In this document: one piece after another, positions 2,410 through 64,000 of the stretch
Layout: each line of letters begins with the position of its first letter
Numbering within the stretch: position 1 is the first letter of the stretch
Assembly (NCBI RefSeq): GCF_900109545.1
Contig: NZ_FOAP01000002.1
Location: forward strand, 248,001 to 312,000
DNA from: Stigmatella aurantiaca
Lineage (GTDB): Bacteria; Myxococcota; Myxococcia; Myxococcales; Myxococcaceae
Direction of reading: 5' to 3'
DNA: 64,000 nt
The notes under the pieces: model-generated
Told to the model about the DNA's origin: nothing
The model's input: the letters and a program-made list of their open reading frames with translations, nothing else
Database searches by the model: none
Made by a program: the position numbers and the translations under genes

Positions 2410-2874
2410 CTACTTCGTGTGCTCGTAGAGGTGGACGGTGAGCACGGGGCAGTGGGCCCGGGCGACCACCTTCTGCGCCACGCTGCCCATCAGCAGGCGG
2501 GGCAGGCCCCGGCGGCCATGGGTGCCCAGGATGATGAGGCCGTGCTTGCCCTCCTCGGCGGCACGCAGAATGGCCGTGGCCGTTTCCCCCACCACCACCC
2601 GGTACTGGAGCGCGCCGGGGGGCTGGCTCACCTGTTCCGCCAGCGCCACCAGGCGCTTGTGGGCGGTGTCGACGGCCACCTTCTCCAGGGATTGGGAGTC
2701 CCACCCCGGCGCGGCCACGAGCAGATCCGGCGCCACGTATTGTGGGGGCTCCCAGACGTGGATCAGCTCCAGCGGGGCACTGAACGCCTGAGCGTAATGG
2801 AGGGCGTACTGCACGAGCGCCAGCGCCTCTTCCGAGAGATCCACGGGAACCAGGATGCGAGACAAAAAGGGCAT
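2410..2874 (-). CDS. Universal stress protein, UspA family
   Basis: Single-domain universal stress protein of 154 aa. The N-terminus (RILVPVDLSEEAL) is the standard first beta-strand and loop, and the C-terminal nucleotide-binding motif GTHGRRGLPRLLMGSVA matches G-2x-G-9x-G(S/T), so this copy is of the ATP-binding type. The strand-final VLTVHLYEH closes the fold. Cytoplasmic; the precise stress is not evident from sequence. The start is well supported by AAGGAGG about 8 nt upstream (minus strand, near 2883-2889). It appears to be transcribed alone. Confidence 0.93.
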   Translation of the reverse strand: MPFLSRILVPVDLSEEALALVQYALHYAQAFSAPLELIHVWEPPQYVAPDLLVAAPGWDSQSLEKVAVDTAHKRLVALAEQVSQPPGALQYRVVVGETATAILRAAEEGKHGLIILGTHGRRGLPRLLMGSVAQKVVARAHCPVLTVHLYEHTK

Positions 2875-3079
2875 GGGCTTTTCCTCCTTAAGAGGAAGGT
2901 GCGCAGCTTCACTGCAAGCTCACAGCCCCCACTCACGGGGTGTTGAATGAGTCCCAGCGCCCGTGTTCTTGCCTGCTCAGCAGGGAGGGCAGGGCCATGC
3001 GAGGACCGAGGGCGGGGGTTTAGCTTTGGGGGCCCCAGGGCCCAGGCCGGGCGGGCCCCCATTGGCTTCGGAGGAGCGC

Positions 3080-3932
3080 ATGCGTCCCCCCATCGACTTT
3101 GGAACCATCTTGATCACCGGAGCCTGCTCGGGTCTGGGCCGGGAGCTTGCCCGCCAGCTCGCCCACCGGGCGAGGACGCTGGTGCTGGTGTGCCCTCATG
3201 CCGAGCGGCTCGGCGCGCTCTCCGAGGAGCTGCAAGCCCACAACCCCACGCTGGGGATGGTCCTTCTGCCTGCGGACCTGTCGCGGCCCGGCGAGGTGGA
3301 CCGGGTCATGGCGGAGCTGTCCCAGCACTACATCACCCCCGGGGTGCTGGTGAATGCGGCTGCAGCGGGGACCCAGGCCTCCTTCACCCAGCAATCCTGG
3401 GAGGACATCGAGCAGACCCTCCAGGCGCACCTGGTGGCCCCGCTTCGGCTCGCGCACCGGCTGCTGCCGGCGATGATCGCGCGCAAGAGCGGGGGCATCC
3501 TCCACGTGGGCTCGGGCCTGTCCCAGTTGTTCACGCCCGGCCTCGCGGCGGCAGGGGCGGCCCACCGGGGGCTGGACGGCTTCTTCGAGTCGTTGCGCCT
3601 GGAAGTGGAGGGCTCGGGCGTCGTCATCACCTACGCGGCCCCGGGCCCCCTCCAGGCCCTGTCCGAGGGCACGGACGCCACCGAGGCCGCCGCCCCCTTC
3701 TTCCGCATCTCTGTCCAGCGGTGCGCGCGCGAGCTGCTCGCGGAGTTCGGCCGGGGAGCGCCCCTGGTGTACCCGGGCACCGGACACGCGTGGGTGATGG
3801 GGCTCCTGCCCTGGCTCCCCCGGGCCCTTCGCAGGGCCCTGGGGCGGTTCGCCGCGGGCCCCCGGCCGGGGAAGGAGCCCCAGCTGGAGGCCCCCCCGGA
3901 GCAGCTCTTGCTCGCCCCGGGGTGGGCGGGAC

Positions 3933-3943
<11 letters not shown>
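3080..3943 (+). CDS. SDR-family protein with degenerate active site
   Basis: Short-chain dehydrogenase/reductase fold of 287 aa. The cofactor motif TGxxxGxG is present (ILITGACSGLGREL) and the NNAG equivalent reads VNAAAAG. The active-site helix reads AAAGAAHRGLDGFFESL: aligned on the conserved LDGFFESLR segment, the catalytic YxxxK has Ala in place of Tyr and His in place of Lys. It therefore probably binds NAD(P) but may not perform classical SDR chemistry. ATG 3080 is preceded by GAGGAG at 3071-3076, so the longer upstream reading frame is not used. The 3' end overlaps the convergent FAD oxidoreductase gene by 11 bp. Confidence 0.82.
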
Positions 3944-5416
<1,473 letters not shown>

Positions 5417-5420
<4 letters not shown>

Positions 5421-6760
5421 GACAGACCTCCAATGAGGGCCTCGGCGGCCCGGGCGCCCGAAGCGGCCGCCTCCTGGGCACTGCCGCCGCCGGTGATGTC
5501 TCCGGCCACGAAGACCTTCGGGGAGGCCGTGCGGCCATCCGCCTGCGCCTCCACCACGAAGAGGCCCCGCTCCGGGTCGAACCGCACGTGCGCGCCGCCC
5601 TGCCGCGCCAGCTCGAAGCTGGGGCTGACGGGAATGGAGACGAGCACCGCCTCGCAGCTCACCTTCTCCCGCCGGCCCTCGCGGGTGAAGCTGAAGGCGC
5701 CCACCTGCTGGAGGCCATGCGCCTTGGGCTCCGAGCCCACGCACGCCCCGGCGGGGGCCCCGGCGGGCACCGGGCCCCGGAGATCCACCAGCGCCACCAC
5801 CCGGGTGCCCCGGGATTCGAGCAGCCGCGCCAGGGCGTAGAGCTCCTCGCCCCAGCCCACCAGCGCCGCCCGCGCGGGAGCGACATCATGCTCGCGCAGG
5901 AGCTGGCTGGCGGCGCGCCCCGCGTAGACGCCGGGCAGATCATTGTTCTCGAAGGGGAGGAACGGCGGGTGCCCTCCGGTCGCCAGCAGGAAGCGCTCGG
6001 CGTACACCTTGGAGAGCTGCAGCCCCTCCGGCCCCTGCAAGCCCACCACCAGGAAGGGCCCCTCCTCGTCATCGAAGAGGCCCAGCGCCTGCGCCCGGGT
6101 GAGGACACTCCCAGACGGGAAGGACGCGGCATCGGCGGCGGCAGGGTCCCCCGCCTGCGGGGCGCCCCGGACGAGCCGTCCGCCCAGGCGGGCCTCGCGC
6201 TCGATCAGGAGGAATGGGGTGCCCTGGGTGGCCAGCACGCGGGCCGCCGCGAGTCCCGCCGCGCCTCCGCCCACCACCGCGACCTGGACGCGGACGGTGC
6301 GGGGCGGGGGCCGGGCCGGGGCCTCGCGATCCGGCAGCAGGCCCAGCCCCGCGAGCTGCCGGGCGACCTTGGCCATCACCTGCTCGGCGATGGGCACGCC
6401 CGCGAACATCTCGTGGTGATCCAACCCTCCGGGGAAGAACCAGTCGATGGTGGCGAAGACGTCCACCTTGGTGGAGGGGAAGGCGTTCTGGCGCTCCAGC
6501 TTCATGCCGTCCCGCGCGGGGGTGCGGCAGGTGTAGACGTTGGGCTGGCCGTCCACGCGCATCAAACAGTGCGAGCAGGCGGCGGCGAAGCAGTAGGCCC
6601 CACGGGGGCGGTGGTACTTGATGGAGCGGGCAAACATGGCCTCGCCCGCGGCAATGAGGGAACAAGCCACCGGTTCGCCCTCGATGGCGGGGATGGTTTC
6701 GCCCTCGAGGTCCACGGTGATGGCCTTACCGCGGGGGGAGGCATCAGGGAGGCGTCGCAT
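5417..6760 (-). CDS. Fused [2Fe-2S]/FAD-NAD oxidoreductase subunit (SoxA/HcnAB-like)
   Basis: 447-aa partner subunit. The N-terminus resembles the sarcosine oxidase alpha N-terminal domain (SIKYHRPRGAYC) but, unlike SoxA, keeps four cysteines, C57-x4-C62-x2-C65-x12-C78, as expected for a plant-type [2Fe-2S] cluster (HcnA-like). From about residue 158 there is a pyridine-nucleotide-disulfide-oxidoreductase domain with GGGAAG, a second Rossmann region (AALVGWGEELYALARLL) and a final FVAGDITGGGSAQEAA FAD motif. So HcnA- and HcnB-type functions are fused. It should pass electrons between the catalytic subunit's flavin and an acceptor. ATG 6760 lacks a clear ribosome-binding site. It is the first gene of a two-gene operon. 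Confidence 0.83.
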
Positions 6761-6796
6761 GGATGCGGCGCAACTTGGCCCAACTGCCTCGAACGG

Positions 6797-8239
6797 TCAA
6801 AGGGTGGAGTGCGGCGAGTACGGCTCGGGCATGCTCCGGGTCCTGCTGCCGAACCGGGTGCGGATGACCGCCCCGAAGGCCACGAGCACCGCCAAGGCCA
6901 TCACCAGCCAGCCGAGCACCGGAATGGCCCCCACGCCCAGCAGCACGAGCAATCCCAGTGCCAGCACGGCCGCCTGCGTCTTCCGGCCGCGCAGGAAGGG
7001 CAGCCGCAGTCCAATCTCGCTGGCCACGGCCGCCAGGCCCAGGGCCGCGGCCAGGGGGATGACGAGCCACATCAACACCAGCACCGGGATGCCCACCAGG
7101 GTGATGGCCAGAATCACGGAGATGGGGATGAGGGCCACGGCGCCCAGGAGCCCCGTCAGGCCACTGTTGACGGGCTGCGCCTTGATTTCCGCCGCCAGTT
7201 CCTTCATGCGCGTGGGGAAGAGGAGCTGTCCCAGGAACCCCAGCCCGAAGAGCGCCGCGAACTTGAGGAGGAAGGCCGGGAAGCCGCCGCCCGAGTCGTC
7301 ATCCTCCCCGGTGGCCTCGGACCGCTCCGAGTCCGCCTCTTCCGAGCGCTTGAACTCCTTCTGGAGGCTGTCCTTGACCTCTCCGAGCACCATGCTGCCC
7401 AGGGACGTGCCCTCCATGGACTCGATGTCGCCCTCGACATGGGCGCCCTCGGCCTGGACGACCTGCCCGCCGATGGCCGAGGCCTCGCCTTCCACCCGGG
7501 CGCCCGGGTGCAGGGTGACGGTGCCCCCGAAGGCATGGACGTCCCCATCCACCGAGCCGAAGACGTCCAGGTTGCCGCCGAAGACGACCGCGTCCTTCTC
7601 GACGTGCCCCCGCACCACCATGTTGCCGCCGTAGACGACGGCGTTGTCCACGCTCTCGCCCTCTTTGACTTCGAGGGACTGGCCCCGGGCCACCACGTCC
7701 TGGTCGCCGCGGGAGCGGCGCTGGGCCTTGCGCATCTCGTCCCGGATCCGCTTGCGGATCTCCCGGGGCGACGGCCCCTCGGACGGCGCCTCGGGGAGCG
7801 CGGGCGGAGAGACGGCCGCGACGGGCGGCGCGGGAACCGGCAGGGGAGCGGTGTCCCCGGTGGCCTCCTCCAGCTCCTCGGCCTCCTCGGCGGCGCGCCG
7901 CTCCGCGTCCGTCATGGGCCGCAGGGTGTAGATGGAGTTGTCCTGGCGCAGGCGCAGCGAGTAGGTCCGCGCGATGGTCTTCAGGGCCTGGTCGGCGGTG
8001 ATGCCCCGGAGGTGGACCTCCACGGCGGTGTCCAGGTTGCCCGTGGCGACCACGTTGAGCCCGCCCTGCTCGGCGATCTGCTTGAGCGCATCGCGGAGCG
8101 TGCCGCGGAAGTTCACGTCAATGGGCTTGGAGGCGGGCGCCTGGGCCGCGGGGGCGGCATCCGGCGCGGCCAGGGCCAGGGGGGCACCGAGCAGCAGGGA
8201 GGGCAGCAGCAGGTGGGAAGCGATCTTCATGGGGGACAC
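6797..8239 (-). CDS. Exported STN-domain / polymer-forming (bactofilin-like) membrane protein
   Basis: 480-aa envelope protein of unusual architecture. A signal peptide (to about residue 25, ...LALAAPDA) is followed by an STN-type domain (residues ~38-107: VNFRGTLRDALKQIAEQ... YTLRP) as found in secretins and TonB receptors. A Pro-rich linker and a charged segment come next, then a right-handed beta-helix-like repeat of G/V/A turns (NAVVYGGNMVVRG, DAVVFGGNLDVFG, VHAFGGTV) like bactofilin-type polymer-forming domains. An acidic linker and about four hydrophobic helices (residues ~325-460) end the protein. Start is GTG 8239, immediately after the anti-sigma gene's TGA; MKI at 8230 is an alternative. 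Third gene of the ECF operon, so a probable envelope-stress effector or structural target (inference). Confidence 0.78.
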   Translation of the reverse strand: MSPMKIASHLLLPSLLLGAPLALAAPDAAPAAQAPASKPIDVNFRGTLRDALKQIAEQGGLNVVATGNLDTAVEVHLRGITADQALKTIARTYSLRLRQDNSIYTLRPMTDAERRAAEEAEELEEATGDTAPLPVPAPPVAAVSPPALPEAPSEGPSPREIRKRIRDEMRKAQRRSRGDQDVVARGQSLEVKEGESVDNAVVYGGNMVVRGHVEKDAVVFGGNLDVFGSVDGDVHAFGGTVTLHPGARVEGEASAIGGQVVQAEGAHVEGDIESMEGTSLGSMVLGEVKDSLQKEFKRSEEADSERSEATGEDDDSGGGFPAFLLKFAALFGLGFLGQLLFPTRMKELAAEIKAQPVNSGLTGLLGAVALIPISVILAITLVGIPVLVLMWLVIPLAAALGLAAVASEIGLRLPFLRGRKTQAAVLALGLLVLLGVGAIPVLGWLVMALAVLVAFGAVIRTRFGSRTRSMPEPYSPHSTL

Positions 8240-8746
8240 TCACGCTTCGGTCAGGGAGGGAGGGGGGCCCGCGAGCCGCTTGAGCCCGAACAGGCAGACA
8301 GAGAGCACCACGAGGAGGATGGCGGTGATGGGGCCCGCCGCGATGTTCCAAAGCGCGCTTCCACCATTGGCAAGATCCAAGGCGAGCGCCTTTCCATCCG
8401 AGACCAGGGACGCCAGGGCGAGGCCCAGCCGCGACAGGGCCCGGTCATTGGAGATCAACAACCCCAGCCCCACCGAGAGCGAGACGGCCAGGATGCTCAC
8501 CCCCGCCCAGAGCTCGCGCCGCAGGGGAGGGGGCGCGGTGGCCACCCGGGCCATCACGTTGACGACCAGAGAGGGGGGCGGCAGCGGGTCCGCCAGCCGG
8601 TAGAGATCCTTCTCGAGCTGGCGGTGCTCCTCCAGCACGGCGCTGCACAGGGCACAGGCGGCGGCATGCTCCAGCGAGGGCCCTTCGCCGAGCTCCAGCT
8701 CGGTGAACAGCACTTCCAACTCAGGGCACTGAGACGTGGGAGTCAT
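8240..8746 (-). CDS. Zinc-finger anti-sigma factor, membrane bound
   Basis: 168-aa probable anti-sigma factor for the adjacent ECF sigma. The N-terminal cytoplasmic part carries an H-x3-C-x2-C zinc motif (LEHAAACALC), the hallmark of zinc-binding anti-sigma proteins. Two hydrophobic stretches follow (residues ~80-100 and ~138-155). The ATG overlaps the sigma factor stop by 4 nt (ATGA), implying translational coupling and matched stoichiometry. By family analogy it holds the sigma factor inactive at the inner membrane until an envelope signal relieves it. The downstream STN/bactofilin-like gene starts directly after this stop. Confidence 0.82.
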   Translation of the reverse strand: MTPTSQCPELEVLFTELELGEGPSLEHAAACALCSAVLEEHRQLEKDLYRLADPLPPPSLVVNVMARVATAPPPLRRELWAGVSILAVSLSVGLGLLISNDRALSRLGLALASLVSDGKALALDLANGGSALWNIAAGPITAILLVVLSVCLFGLKRLAGPPPSLTEA

Positions 8747-58808: not shown

Positions 58809-59801
58809 GTGGGGACCGAGCACTCGCACGAGGTGGCACAGGACGCTCCGGGGCGGGTCCCCGGACCCCTGGCCTTGCTGTGGCTGCTCCTGTGGCGGCC
58901 GGTGGACCTGCACTACCGGCTGCACGGCGCGGGCATCCGCACGCCGGGCGGCCGCATCGGCCAGCTCTGGCGCCAGCAGGGGGAGGGCAACCGCGCCGCG
59001 GGGCTGTACGTGCGGCGGATGTTGTTGCTGCTGCTGGGCGTGTCGCCGGTGCTCACCTTCGCGCTGGGCCTGGGCCTGCATGCGCTGGGGATTCCGCTAG
59101 CGGCGGGCTGGGGCATGACGGCGGTGCTGTGCTCGGCGATGGGCCTGTTCCTGGCGCTCACCACGGGGCTGGCGGCCGGGATGCTCATGGGAATGCTGGC
59201 GAGCCTCGCCATGCTGGTGGGCCTGCACGTGGTGGTGGCGGAGTCCTTCGGGCCCCGGATGGGCGGCCTGGCCGGGGCCATCATGGGCGGCTGCCTGGGG
59301 CTGGTGGGCGGGATGTGCGCGGGGAGCATCGGCGGGCTCGCGCGGGGCCAGGGGCTGTCCGTCAACCGGGTGCAGGTGGGCGCCATCGTGCTGAGCCTCG
59401 TGCCGATGCTCGTGTGGGGCTCGGGCGGGGCGTGGCACGTGGGCGGGGCCGTGGCAGCGAGCTCGCTGGTCATGTACCTGGGGGCCGCGTTCCGCCTGTT
59501 CGTCTATCCCGTGGAGGTGCTGCTCCAGACGGTGGCCTTCGCGGTGGAGCGGTGGACGGGGCGGCCCACGCTGCGCTGGTCCCCGGTGCTCCACCACAAC
59601 CTGGGCTACCTGCGTTACCCCTTCCTGCGGGCGCATCTGGCGCTGGCGGCGCGCACCCGGCCCAAGGAGGTGCTGGACGTGGCCAACGCCTGCCTCAAGT
59701 CTCCGGGCAACTCCATGCTGGGGTGGCCCTGGGTGCTGGCGGCCCTGGCGCAGGCGGAGGCGGCCACGGAGGCGAGGAAGCGCGCGGAGGGCGAGCGGTG
59801 A
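58809..59801 (+). CDS. Polytopic membrane protein of unknown function
   Basis: 330-aa protein with about six to seven hydrophobic helices between residues ~68 and ~245, including Gly/Met-rich stretches (GLAAGMLMGMLASLAMLVGL, GPRMGGLAGAIMGGCLGLVG), flanked by a hydrophilic N-terminus and a ~85-residue cytoplasmic-looking C-terminus. I do not recognise the family. GTG 58809 is preceded by AAGGGGAG. Its TGA overlaps the xer GTG by 4 nt, so it is expressed with the recombinase; a functional link is unproven. Confidence 0.72.
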   Translation: MGTEHSHEVAQDAPGRVPGPLALLWLLLWRPVDLHYRLHGAGIRTPGGRIGQLWRQQGEGNRAAGLYVRRMLLLLLGVSPVLTFALGLGLHALGIPLAAGWGMTAVLCSAMGLFLALTTGLAAGMLMGMLASLAMLVGLHVVVAESFGPRMGGLAGAIMGGCLGLVGGMCAGSIGGLARGQGLSVNRVQVGAIVLSLVPMLVWGSGGAWHVGGAVAASSLVMYLGAAFRLFVYPVEVLLQTVAFAVERWTGRPTLRWSPVLHHNLGYLRYPFLRAHLALAARTRPKEVLDVANACLKSPGNSMLGWPWVLAALAQAEAATEARKRAEGER

Positions 59802-60742
59802 GTGGAGGGCTGGAAGGGTACCTGGACGCGTTCATCGCCTTCATCCGCGCGGAGCGGGGGCTGTCCGGCAAGACGGTGGACGCCTACGCGGCGGACCTCA
59901 CGGCCTACTTCGAGGATCTGCGCGCGCGAGGGGTGCTGGACGCGGCGCGGGCGAAGCAGGAGGACGTGACGGCGCACCTGATGCAGTTGGGGGCGAAGGG
60001 CCTGTCCAAGCGAAGCCAGGCGCGGCACCTGGCGGCCGTGCGCGGCTTTCACCGCTTCCTCATCGCCGAGAAGCACGCGGAGAAGGACCCCACCGAGGAC
60101 CTGGACACCCCGCGCGCGGCGCGAAAGCTGCCGAGCTTCCTCACGCTGGAGGAGGTGGAGCAACTGCTAGCCGCCCCGGACGAGCGTCACCCCACGGGCA
60201 TGCGGGACAAGGCGATGCTGGAGCTGCTGTACGCCACGGGCCTGCGCGTGAGCGAGCTGTGCTCGCTCGGCATCAACGACGTGCAGTTGGGCGCGGGCTA
60301 CCTGATAGCGAAAGGGAAGGGGAGCAAGGAGCGCATCGTCCCGGTGGGCAGCATCGCGTCGGAGAAGGTGCAGGCCTACTTAGGCGGGCCCCGTCAGCAC
60401 CTGCTGGGCAAGCGCCAGTCGCGCTCGCTCTTCATCACGCCCCGGGGCGGGGCCTTCACACGACAAGGCTTCTGGAAGCTGCTGAAGCGCTATGCGCTCA
60501 AGGCGGGTATCCGCAAGCCCATCTCCCCGCACAAGCTGCGCCACTCCTTCGCCACCCATTTGGTGGAGCGGGGGGCGGACCTGCGCGCCGTCCAGGCCAT
60601 GTTGGGCCACGCGGACCTGGCCACTACGCAGATCTACACCCACGTCAACAGCGCCCGGCTGCGCGCCGTCTACGACGAGCACCACCCCCGCAGCGAGACC
60701 GCCGCCCCCCCACGCCCCAAGCGGCGCAAGCCTGGGGCGTAG
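59798..60742 (+). CDS. Tyrosine recombinase XerC/XerD
   Basis: 314-aa site-specific recombinase. A SAM-like N-terminal core-binding domain (residues ~5-95) precedes the catalytic domain. The full active site is present: Arg150 (GLRVSEL), Lys in KGKGSKERIVP, His245 and Arg248 (HKLRHSFATHL), His271 (LGHADL) and nucleophile Tyr280 (TTQIYTHV). It resolves chromosome dimers at dif in most bacteria; which of XerC or XerD it is cannot be assigned. GTG 59798 overlaps the upstream stop. The C-terminal 20-odd codons are duplicated in diverged form at 61476-61552. Confidence 0.95.
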   Translation: MSGGLEGYLDAFIAFIRAERGLSGKTVDAYAADLTAYFEDLRARGVLDAARAKQEDVTAHLMQLGAKGLSKRSQARHLAAVRGFHRFLIAEKHAEKDPTEDLDTPRAARKLPSFLTLEEVEQLLAAPDERHPTGMRDKAMLELLYATGLRVSELCSLGINDVQLGAGYLIAKGKGSKERIVPVGSIASEKVQAYLGGPRQHLLGKRQSRSLFITPRGGAFTRQGFWKLLKRYALKAGIRKPISPHKLRHSFATHLVERGADLRAVQAMLGHADLATTQIYTHVNSARLRAVYDEHHPRSETAAPPRPKRRKPGA

Positions 60743-60797
60743 ATGCACGTGTAAGACCGAGCAAGGGGTTGGCTGAGCCATCTATTGAAACACGTTC

Positions 60798-61262
60798 TTA
60801 ATAAACGGCTCCCACCGTTACGCCTGAGTAGCTACAGTTGGCCTGGAGACCAATCCACCATGTCCCTGGAGACGGGTTGCTGATAGAGATAAATTCAGCG
60901 TTTGTCCCGGCAGTGGCAGAGCTTCCATGGTAGGAACCACCCGACGGCCTGAAGCCCCATGCAAGAAAAAGATCCGCACCATATGAGGCGCCCACCGTGC
61001 CATACTGGGAATACACTAAGAGTGCAGGAGTATTTTCTGGCACAGAGATCGGAAAGTATTGCCACGATCCACATGTAGATGAAGACCGGTTTACCCATTC
61101 GTAGGCGCCCTGGGTTTGAACTCCTCCGCTCTTGACTACTTGCGCAGGGGTTTCAAGCACCACCTCCTGGGGAATGTCCTGAGCCTCAGACTGCTGCACC
61201 TCGTCAGCAGGTCCGCAAGCCCAAGCCCCAATCGACAAAAGACAAAACACAAACTTCTTCAT
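60798..61262 (-). CDS. Lipoprotein with solitary PPC-type domain
   Basis: 154-aa predicted lipoprotein (signal to AWAC, an imperfect lipobox). A linker (~25-55) leads to a beta-sandwich that looks like a bacterial pre-peptidase C-terminal domain: GADLFLAWGFRPSGGSYHGS, NAEFISISNPSPGTWWIGLQ and YSGVTVGAVY match the PPC pattern of DLY-x-GxxP, GxxE and GtwyI-YSGV. PPC domains normally sit at the end of secreted proteases; here it stands alone. Codon use and G+C are clearly lower than in the xer gene, suggesting transfer. GGAGGG lies 6 nt before ATG 61262. Confidence 0.8.
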   Translation of the reverse strand: MKKFVFCLLSIGAWACGPADEVQQSEAQDIPQEVVLETPAQVVKSGGVQTQGAYEWVNRSSSTCGSWQYFPISVPENTPALLVYSQYGTVGASYGADLFLAWGFRPSGGSYHGSSATAGTNAEFISISNPSPGTWWIGLQANCSYSGVTVGAVY

Positions 61263-61270
61263 TGGTCCCT

Positions 61271-61291
61271 CCAACGTTGGTTGGCACTATA
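61271..61291 (-). promoter_or_regulatory. -10 element and palindrome upstream of the PPC lipoprotein
   Basis: On the minus strand TATAGT (61286-61291) is one mismatch from TATAAT, with a predicted start near 61279 and a 17-nt leader; no good -35 is visible. CCAACGTTGG (61271-61280) is a perfect palindrome overlapping that start and may be an operator. Confidence 0.35.
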
Positions 61292-61438
61292 TTGCCAGAG
61301 CTTCCACTCAGAGACAGTTAGTGTTCACTTATCGTGACCGATTCTCGGTGCCATGTAAAGCTTTGGCGTCCCTAGGTATGAAGCTGAAACGGACCTTTGC
61401 TGCAAAAAAAGACGATCTCCTCTCTAAGACACGTGCGG

Positions 61439-61463
61439 CTGTCCGCTACTTCACGGCGGACAG
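61439..61463. repeat. Inverted repeat beside the xer remnant
   Basis: CTGTCCGC (61439-61446) and GCGGACAG (61456-61463) form an 8-bp dyad with a 9-nt spacer, 13 bp before the duplicated xer 3' end. It lacks a T-run on either side. It could be a recombinase site, a regulatory dyad, or a relic of an insertion boundary. The remaining parts of 61263-61475 hold no gene and are A+T-rich for this genome. Confidence 0.35.
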
Positions 61464-61475
61464 TACTGCTGGTGG

Positions 61476-61552
61476 CCGTCTCATATAAGTACCACCCGCG
61501 CAGCGAGACTGCCGTTCCTCCATACCCCCAGCGGCGCAAGGGAATTCAGTAA
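61476..61552 (+). pseudogene. Diverged duplicate of the xer 3' end
   Basis: The sequence at 61491-61540 aligns without gaps to 60681-60730, the end of the xer gene, with 8 mismatches in 50 bp; weaker codon-level similarity extends back to 61476. In frame it encodes YHPRSETAVPPYPQRRKGIQ then TAA, against HHPRSETAAPPRPKRRKPGA then TAG. Changes are often at third positions or conservative, as for a once-coding paralogue. The final bases overlap the stop of the convergent Cys-rich gene. Probably a remnant of a displaced or related xer copy, 810 bp from its match. Confidence 0.75.
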
Positions 61553-62460
61553 GCCATTGTTTCATCCCAATAGATAGGTTGGCATGAGAATGGCCGGTCC
61601 TCCCCGCGGCGGCTACAATGATATCCCTCACCGCATACTTGAGGACCCTGCGGCTCACAAGCCGTCAGGCAATGCCAGCCATCACATACCTTTCTGGCGC
61701 CGCAGGGAGGCAGATTTTCGCCGCACGGCTCGACACATTCCATCCACACCTTGTCTGGATACGGCGGAGCATAATTCACGTCGCACTTGCGGCCATCGGT
61801 ACAGGGGGTCTGGAGGCAGTGAGGGCCATACACCTGTGCGCACACAGAAACGCCTTCGTCGAAACGAATGCACTGCTGGCCCGCAGGACAGCCTCGTGCC
61901 TCACACGTGGGTAAGCACAGCGGTCGAGGAATGGTGTCCGCACAGAAGAAGCCCTCGGAGCACCCTCGGGTATCTCCCAAGCGGCAGGGCCGTGCGCACC
62001 ATCCCTCCGTACGGCCACCGCACACCAAGCCAGGGGCGCAGGCGTTCGCTTTGTCCCGGGGGAGCGGAACACACCCCTCTCCCTCTTGGCGTGGGCCCAG
62101 GGGGACACACACGCGCACCAAAGGCCCATCTCCCCAAGTAGCAACGCCCTGGCAACTCTGGCCTTCTGGACACTGGTCATCCCCCCAGCACTGGCTGTCT
62201 GAGCAGGTTGATCGTGCGTACCGGACATCGAACAAGCAGCCCAGTGGCGGCTCACAGGCTTTGCCGGGCCCGCACGCGCGGCCGTATGTAACCAGGCGCA
62301 GGCGCTGCTCGGCGGTGAGCATGGGACTGACTCGTTCCCCGGGGGGAGCACTCACCGGCACATCCAGCTTCAACAGCCCCCCGAGCAGCAGCACGAGCGG
62401 GAGTGGTAACAGCACACCCGCGCAGGCAACCACGGCTTTGCGCCAGTTCAACCGCTGCAC
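61546..62460 (-). CDS. Membrane-anchored Cys-rich (Dickkopf-like repeat) protein
   Basis: 304-aa protein with one N-terminal hydrophobic helix (residues ~8-30), then a region with about thirty cysteines arranged in repeated CxxGxxC-type knots: CGPGKACEPPLGCLFD, WGDDQCPEGQSCQ, ACAPGLVCGG, GCSEGFFCADTI, GCPAGQQCIRFDEG and CGEGYHCSRRGED. These resemble the Dickkopf N-terminal Cys-rich modules common in myxobacterial exported proteins. Probably surface or periplasmic and disulfide-bonded. Function unknown. GTG 62460 follows directly on the TGA of the upstream lipoprotein gene, so the two are one operon. Confidence 0.75.
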   Translation of the reverse strand: MQRLNWRKAVVACAGVLLPLPLVLLLGGLLKLDVPVSAPPGERVSPMLTAEQRLRLVTYGRACGPGKACEPPLGCLFDVRYARSTCSDSQCWGDDQCPEGQSCQGVATWGDGPLVRVCVPLGPRQEGEGCVPLPRDKANACAPGLVCGGRTEGWCARPCRLGDTRGCSEGFFCADTIPRPLCLPTCEARGCPAGQQCIRFDEGVSVCAQVYGPHCLQTPCTDGRKCDVNYAPPYPDKVWMECVEPCGENLPPCGARKVCDGWHCLTACEPQGPQVCGEGYHCSRRGEDRPFSCQPIYWDETMAY

Positions 62461-62676
62461 TCACGGACCTCCGCACGCGCGGCACTCGTCCGAATGCTCC
62501 TTGCCCGGCGAGCAAACTCTCCTGCGTTCCCAGTCCGCACAGCGCTTGAGGATGAGCTGTTCCTGCGTGTCTTTGCGAACCGCCTTGGAAACACGGCCCT
62601 CCTTCCCGAATTCAGAGGGGCAGCCGGTCGTTGCTACGACTGAAAGGACTACCACCGTGGCGCGGACTCCTAGCAT
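62461..62676 (-). CDS. Small lipoprotein upstream of the Cys-rich gene
   Basis: 71-aa predicted lipoprotein with lipobox ATTGC. The mature part is about 52 residues, charged, with a C-terminal pair of Cys motifs (LILKRCADWERRRVCSPG, ECRACGG). No family recognised. Start ATG 62676; the longer frame to 62712 lacks a signal-like start. Its TGA is directly followed by the GTG of the Cys-rich gene. The two may form a surface pair. Confidence 0.65.
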   Translation of the reverse strand: MLGVRATVVVLSVVATTGCPSEFGKEGRVSKAVRKDTQEQLILKRCADWERRRVCSPGKEHSDECRACGGP

Positions 62677-62732
62677 CGGCCCCCTCCCATCAAGAGCGGT
62701 GGATGCTATCAACGAAGCCCCTCCTGTTCACG

Positions 62733-64000
62733 CTATACCCTCGCCACGGGCGCCACGCGAGGCAGCGCCAGGGTGAAAACGGTTCCCTTGCCCAGTTCGC
62801 TCTCCACGTCGATGTGGCCTCCATGGGCCCGGACAATTCCATACGCCACGGAGAGCCCCAGCCCCACGCCCTCCCCGGGGGGCTTGGTGGTGAAGAACGG
62901 CTCGAACAGCCGCCGCTTCGTCTCCTCGGACATGCCCGCCCCGGTGTCCCGCACCGCCACGAGCACCTGCTCGCCCTCGCGGCGCGTGGTGATGCGCACC
63001 CGTCCGCCGGGGGCAGTGGCTTGCCCCGCGTTGACCATGAGGTTCACCAGCACCTGGACGATCTGCCGCGGATGGCCCACGACCCGGCCCACCTCGCCCA
63101 GCTCCTTCTCCACCTGGACATGGCCGAGCTGCACCTGCGCGAGGCGCAGTCCCATCTCCACCTCGGCGTTGAAGTCGTAGTCCATATTGCGGTCGACCCC
63201 TCCGCCCGAAAAGCGGCGCAGGTCCGCAACGATGGAATTCACCCGCCGGATGCCATCCAGCGTGGCCGGCAGCACATCGTCCACGTACTCGCGCATCACC
63301 TCCGGCAGCGCCTTCTCTTCCTTCAAGTCCCGGAGCAGCGAGCCGACATTGCTCGTCACGAAGCTCATCGGGTTGTTGATTTCATGCGCCACCCCCGCCG
63401 CGAGCAGCCCCAGGCTGGAGAGGTGCTCCTGCTTGAGCGCCCGTTCGTGCATCCGCCGCATTTCATGGTGGGCGTTCTCAAGCTGCACCATCGCCCCGCG
63501 CAACATCTCGACGCGGCGCTCGGACACCACGTAGCCGATGGCGCCAATCAGGGAGAAGGCCAGCGCTATGGAGAAGCTGGCCCCCGTGAGCAGTGCCACC
63601 GTGTTCACCACTCCCAGGTAGAGCACCATGCGCAACCGGATCCACCGGCCGACACCGAAGGACCAGAACATGTTGTAGGGAACGAAGACCCAGAGCAGGA
63701 CGTGCCACTGGGTGGCGATGCCCACGATGCACACTCCTATCGCGTTGGCCCCCATCCGCACCGCGTCCACCCCGAGAGACGAGAGCCTCCTGGACAGCCA
63801 ATCGACGGCAAGGGTGTTGAACAGGGTGAGCACCAGGCCGACCGACACGATGATGGGGACCACGCGCCACTGCCCCCAGAACGCGCAGGCCAAGGACACG
63901 TTGACGGCACACGCACCCATCCCCGCCACTCGCTGAACGGCGCGCCGGGCTTGCTCCGAATCCGCCAGCGCGGTGGCTCCGCCAGGAGCGAGCAGCTCAT
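62733..64000 (-). CDS. Sensor histidine kinase (N-terminus outside the window)
   Basis: C-terminal 422 codons of a histidine kinase; the frame stays open past the right edge, so the start is not seen. Five or six membrane helices (to about position 63520) form the sensor module. The HisKA phospho-acceptor box is GLLAAGVAHEINNPMSFVTS, and the ATPase has VRDTGAGMSEETKRRLFEPF, FFTTKPPGEGVGLGLSVAYG and GKGTVFTLALP. A membrane-bound sensor with no large extracytoplasmic domain is expected. It shares the kinase-core layout of the enzyme at 41120 but is not a recent duplicate. No cognate regulator is visible. GTG 63929 is a possible internal start but coding character continues upstream. Confidence 0.9.
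   Translation of the reverse strand, partial: ELLAPGGATALADSEQARRAVQRVAGMGACAVNVSLACAFWGQWRVVPIIVSVGLVLTLFNTLAVDWLSRRLSSLGVDAVRMGANAIGVCIVGIATQWHVLLWVFVPYNMFWSFGVGRWIRLRMVLYLGVVNTVALLTGASFSIALAFSLIGAIGYVVSERRVEMLRGAMVQLENAHHEMRRMHERALKQEHLSSLGLLAAGVAHEINNPMSFVTSNVGSLLRDLKEEKALPEVMREYVDDVLPATLDGIRRVNSIVADLRRFSGGGVDRNMDYDFNAEVEMGLRLAQVQLGHVQVEKELGEVGRVVGHPRQIVQVLVNLMVNAGQATAPGGRVRITTRREGEQVLVAVRDTGAGMSEETKRRLFEPFFTTKPPGEGVGLGLSVAYGIVRAHGGHIDVESELGKGTVFTLALPRVAPVARV

Follow-up and report, generated by a model that had tools for sequence, protein, structure and literature searches.

A probable remnant of a second xerD copy within a gene-turnover gap of Stigmatella aurantiaca

The repeated xerD 3' end that lies downstream of the intact xerD gene of Stigmatella aurantiaca is probably what erosion has left of a second xerD copy, namely the end of that gene, situated in a gap where genes turn over, with local duplication favoured over import as the source of that copy. 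The window analysed here, a stretch of 64,000 nucleotides (G000:C2:248001-312000), comes from an assembly of 9.37 Mb in 61 contigs (G000) and was examined within a collection of 96 genomes of the family Myxococcaceae, 7 of which, G000 included, belong to the same genus. The genome nearest to G000 is G003 (~96.7% identical in the upstream DNA), followed by G002 and G001 at ~90%. The left border of the variable site is formed by xerD itself (59801-60742, forward strand), an intact tyrosine recombinase gene of 313 aa, the product of which scores 361 bits against the XerD profile TIGR02225 (cut-off 329.6) and falls under the cut-off of the XerC model. Both this orthologue and its upstream neighbour are conserved in the family comparison.

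Window positions 61475-61540 match the xerD 3' end (60665-60730) at 52 of 66 bases without gaps, forming the core of a remnant on the forward strand (61475-61552) that extends leftward to 61468 with weaker similarity (73 bp at 77%) and remains open in frame to a TAA at 61550-61552, overlapping the stop of the convergent gene for a 304-aa protein. The 50-bp copy of the xer end that the initial annotation placed 810 bp away is therefore real, with 42 of the final 50 bp identical (84%), no gaps, and a frame ending in TAA. The accompanying statement that the copies differ at third codon positions survives as a weak tendency and fails as a rule, with 6 third-, 5 first-, and 3 second-position mismatches among the 14 over 66 bp, and 4, 2, and 2 respectively over the last 50 bp. 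A hairpin-forming inverted repeat, with 11-nt arms and a 7-nt loop, lies over the end of the intact xerD (60712-60740, forward strand); around the insert, short repeats, promoters, and terminators were not found above chance except for the xerD repeat, and no RNA element was found. The copy is equidistant from the xerD genes of G000 to G003, matching each of the four at 52 of 66 bases, and among 30 xerD genes inspected only these four carry the tail motif SETAAPPRPKRRK. The notion that the repeat merely reflects chance similarity of GC-rich coding DNA has the high GC content in its favour and nothing further, and is refuted by shuffling to the point of being negligible: the repeat reaches a best ungapped score of 62, compared with 27 at most in 200 dinucleotide shuffles, and a second, mid-gene piece in G003 scores 51 against 34.

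The G003 genome carries this mid-xerD piece (nt 352-384 of the gene, 30 of 33 bases, L063 4781-4813) before the same Cys-rich gene, with a tail piece (xerD nt 901-930, 26 of 30 bases, L063 4825-4854) located 11 bp past it. Gene order and strand are kept between the two pieces, with ~515 bp of the gene absent between them, and we infer that they were once one gene. A 101-bp query spanning this stretch of G003, searched against 59 whole genomes, matches the xerD of G000, G001, G003, G004, and G005, with one additional weak match in G083 (E 6e-4). With the pieces summed, the xerD genes of G000 and G003 each match 108 of 129 bases, that of G001 106, and that of G002 104, compared with 88 of 129 for the xerD of the next-best genome. 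The junction following the tail, G[GC]AATTCAGTAAGCCATT, is common to G000 and G003, and the remnant is therefore older than the split between these two genomes; since G003 has the remnant independently, an assembly error is also unlikely. The surviving xerD sequence amounts to 66 bp in G000, where the mid-gene piece is missing, and 63 bp in G003, so that the full length of the lost copy is our deduction from these short pieces.

Islands that encode tyrosine integrases typically integrate at the 3' end of a gene and restore that end. The initial annotation raised an old insertion of this sort as one possibility; on that reading, a mobile element would have entered at the end of xerD, its own copy of the end restoring the gene, and the displaced original would now be at 61475-61540. 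The site resembles such islands in that an A+T-rich, genome-specific accessory segment is bounded distally by a second copy of the gene's 3' end, terminated by a stop. It differs in several respects, with the repeat being only 77-79% identical rather than near-identical, mid-gene sequence (nt 352-384) present in the same remnant in G003 rather than the repeat being confined to the gene end, and no recurrence at other variable gaps. In a comparison of each xerD with its own downstream gap in 57 genomes (E<=1e-3), matches were obtained in G000 (E 7e-11) and G003 (E 2e-7 and 9e-5), with single weak matches in G042, G008, G057, G022, and G025 (E 1e-4 to 6e-4), none of them to the 3' end, which we take for chance matches between GC-rich coding sequences. 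Copies of the xerD tail are thus found in 2 of 57 gaps, many of which are large. Furthermore, six-frame peptides of the 57 gaps contain no match at E<=0.01 to a family Xer profile, a profile that could miss a distant phage-type integrase, and Pfam reveals no integrase or transposase among nine gap proteins of G000, G002, and G003, in which a sub-threshold match to a Tn5 dimerisation domain lies inside an RCC1 protein. The segment holds a single gene, and a divergence of 21% is high for a crossover site. Integration at the xerD 3' end is accordingly very unlikely, and an attachment-site repeat was set aside on account of the mid-gene piece of G003, the 55 other gaps without end copies, and the lack of Xer-like genes in the gaps.

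The DNA between xerD and the remnant (60743-61474) is confined to G000 and has a GC content of 0.526, compared with 0.694 for the window, whilst 60743-61516 matches no DNA of the genus's 6 other genomes. It contains, on the reverse strand, a gene for a probable lipoprotein of 154 aa as counted from an ATG (60798-61262; alternative TTG start at 61274), with a PPC domain that lies just above the cut-off of PF04151 (27.0 bits against 25.9). This lipoprotein is found at full length in G000 only (1 of 92 genomes), with the PPC domain alone, at ~27-42% identity, seen elsewhere. The description of an A+T-richer stretch with a PPC lipoprotein behind xer is thereby borne out, as is the accessory nature of the segment, given that the gene content behind xer also differs in every close relative. 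A plasmid or phage origin of the insert was considered and dropped, with a single weak match of the PPC domain to a plasmid protein (35% identity), no phage match, and no viral relative.

Beyond the remnant lie three genes on the reverse strand. The first (61546-62460) encodes a protein of 304 aa with 33 Cys residues, is convergent with the remnant, and overlaps its end; the second (62461-62712) encodes a small protein of 83 aa with 5 Cys residues, in agreement with the two Cys-rich genes first noted behind the repeat, and export of both proteins is plausible from their N-termini. The third, a sensor histidine kinase gene (437 aa), occupies 62733-64000 and extends beyond the window to 64046. 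The 304-aa protein belongs to a dispersed multi-copy family, with 8-22 matches per genome in the genus and members in 55 of the 96 genomes of the family; the 83-aa protein is a frequent partner (loci L264-L272), its gene standing beside several copies of the larger one. Nothing reaches the Pfam cut-off for the 304-aa family, and it has no NCBIfam, PHROG, or PADLOC match; these Cys-rich proteins constitute a large uncharacterised family.

In G003, xerD is followed by a gene of 324 aa, a histidine kinase fragment, and then the Cys-rich block. The A+T-rich 324-aa gene directly behind xerD (L063 3529-4503) matches PADLOC PDC-S64 (E 9e-42), which makes its product a candidate anti-phage defence protein by sequence similarity. 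The kinase gene is duplicated and fragmented in G003, where three versions (2 fragments and 1 full) occur within 6 kb (L223, about 2640-8290), which again points to duplication and decay here. G002 has 907 bp with one gene, for an M17 N-domain protein, between xerD and the next shared gene, which in the comparison of G001 and G002 is a glycosyl hydrolase 3 gene with F5/8 domains. G001 has 3.3 kb in the same place, holding an endonuclease-like gene, the M17-type gene seen in G002, and genes for an OAA-family lectin and for a protein named glyoxalase-like from a reading of its sequence. The initial annotation had predicted that relatives would show an empty site missing just 60743-61490, and no such site was seen: G005 has 9 bp from xer to the next conserved gene, the block is missing entirely from G001 and G002, and in G003 different genes occupy the position of the lipoprotein gene.

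Across the family, xerD and a downstream DUF4388 gene are found on one contig in 61 of 96 genomes, convergent with each other, and the gap between them ranges from 9 to 35,558 bp (median 1,639), exceeding 2 kb in 30 of the 61. The distances on either side are short, at 2-1,063 bp from xerD to its upstream neighbour (n=49) and 113-1,491 bp from the DUF4388 gene to scpA (n=57); in 23 genomes outside this set of 57, xerD and scpA are separated by 1.07-2.23 kb in 22 and by 5.4 kb in one. Variability is thus confined to the gap behind xerD, and gene content varies widely there between fixed core genes. The convergent orientation of the borders is a likely cause of this tolerance to insertion, because DNA inserted between convergent genes breaks no promoter or operon. 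Among 106 predicted cargo proteins from 13 genomes, the most frequent Pfam families are those of phosphoesterase domains (5), followed by amidase, lantibiotic-type synthesis, and secretion-adaptor domains (3 each), with no integrase or transposase among the best 25 of 118 families. PADLOC and PHROG scans of the cargo give scattered matches, and overall the cargo ranges over hydrolases, a lectin, lantibiotic-type biosynthesis genes, and defence candidates. No description of the xerD-DUF4388 site was found in openly licensed PMC papers.

Another possible reading is that elements enter the gap by exploiting XerC/XerD at a dif-like sequence. The family dif was located by GC-skew and the switch in GGGNAGGG polarity, with its motif recovered in 83 of 96 genomes. 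The location of xerD near the terminus agrees with capture through dif, with dif lying 47-338 kb downstream in 32 genomes with both on one contig. However, the family dif is normally single in a genome and lies outside the gap, and across 47 gaps no dif-arm score exceeds 14 of 22, the mean being 12.0 compared with 12.4 for shuffled sequences. Capture of elements by XerC/XerD at this gap is consequently highly improbable, and was rejected for want of a dif in the gap and for arm scores at shuffle level. The family dif itself, GTCTGATAANNNNNNTTATGTAAACT, occurs at G000:C2:381166-381191 and at equivalent positions, nearly always once per genome, and is consistent with the published M. xanthus dif (PMC2731167), the M. 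xanthus motif also being in print in PMC3778016. Second dif-like sites, with 2 mismatches, occur on second contigs of two genomes (G009:C2:17134-17159 and G068:C2:56887-56912), which may be plasmids that resolve their dimers through XerC/D.

The other border gene is also copied into the gap. A matching comparison of the DUF4388 gene with the gap beside it, made for 47 genomes, gave clear partial copies in two, G031 and G022, both of another genus than G000 and both as direct copies inside the gap. The G031 copy (G031:C3:923540-923965) aligns over 406 bp at 95% and is nearest to the DUF4388 gene of its own genome, at 95.1%, whereas none of 25 further genes exceeds 91.4%, and was therefore copied locally. 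In G022 the copy consists of three collinear pieces (nt 14-51, 95-269, and 514-688) with internal deletion, ~7.0-7.3 kb after xerD, and these are equally near to several species and hence uninformative on origin. Decayed copies of a border gene are thereby present in the gap in four genomes, of xerD in G000 and G003 and of DUF4388 in G022 and G031. Duplicated, decaying border genes recur at this gap, and their occurrence in four genomes favours local partial duplication as the origin of the xerD remnant.

The second xerD may instead have been imported: DNA from another strain or a genus relative, including the donor's xerD and Cys-rich block, would have been inserted next to the resident gene by a route homologous on one side and illegitimate on the other, after which the imported xerD decayed. 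Import shares the decayed second copy with local duplication and differs in the source of that copy; we regard it as somewhat unlikely. Between G000 and G003 the dS of the block (0.21-0.30) exceeds that of the flanks (0.11-0.12), which counts against local duplication and fits either import or faster decay, and the equal distance of the tail copy from the four xerD genes also agrees with import. No donor was found, however, the G031 DUF4388 piece points to local copying in that genome, and there is no sign of an exchanged xerD. The dS of xerD between G000 and G003 is raised, at 0.206, which prompted the idea of a recent exchange within xerD in one lineage; the private sites are symmetric (16 in G000 and 21 in G003) and do not support it. 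A broader proposal, that the gap, close to the replication terminus, is a family-wide exchange site working through recombination in the border genes, with the scraps as footprints of failed or one-sided events, is tentative and appears rather unlikely.

Local duplication followed by decay thus remains the preferred origin of the remnant. The second xerD would have arrived beside the Cys-rich, small-protein, and kinase block in the common ancestor of G000 and G003, and would then have decayed through internal deletion and the insertion of unrelated genes, namely the lipoprotein gene in G000 and the candidate defence gene and kinase fragment in G003. In a tandem duplication, the upstream xerD would keep its partner, a 330-aa gene at 2-bp spacing, leaving the downstream copy free to decay. 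The setting would be a permissive gap between convergent xerD and DUF4388, in which accessory genes turn over without a recognised integrase and into which either border gene may occasionally be duplicated in part and then decay. The remnant resembles a decayed tandem duplicate, or pseudogene remnant, in its collinear pieces, internal deletion, and position in the gene's own neighbourhood, with two same-strand pieces in G003, one in G000, and an intact parent nearby without an open full-length second copy. It departs from a typical remnant of this kind in that a mere 63-66 bp of xerD are left and unrelated genes stand between the intact gene and the remnant. No intact tandem xerD pair was found, and 57 gaps contain no second xerD-like frame, as expected if the decay is old. 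Of the two readings offered in the initial annotation, the branch of a replaced or extra xer gene is therefore the one that gains from the mid-xer piece of G003, in the form of an extra copy.

In its gene turnover, the site also fits the description of integrase-free hotspots in Oliveira et al. 2017 (PMC5635113). As in those hotspots, genes come and go between two fixed core genes with no recognised integrase, and new genes stand at operon edges. Raised homologous recombination of the flanking core genes is a further part of that description, and on this point xerD has a raised dS together with symmetric private-site counts. The cases differ in that species of a family are compared here and strains of one species there, and the present site additionally contains decayed border-gene copies. 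The site is unusually well bounded, and the process is ordinary.

A suspected attachment scar thus becomes evidence for duplication and decay of border genes. For the Myxococcaceae, this defines a sharply bounded turnover site, with a gap of 9 bp to 35.6 kb, short neighbouring gaps on both sides, and copies of both border genes inside, and it makes gene gain at integrase-free hotspots testable genome by genome at the xerD-DUF4388 gap. If the gap were indeed an exchange site working through its border genes, the scraps of xerD and DUF4388 would show how blocks of genes enter without an integrase.
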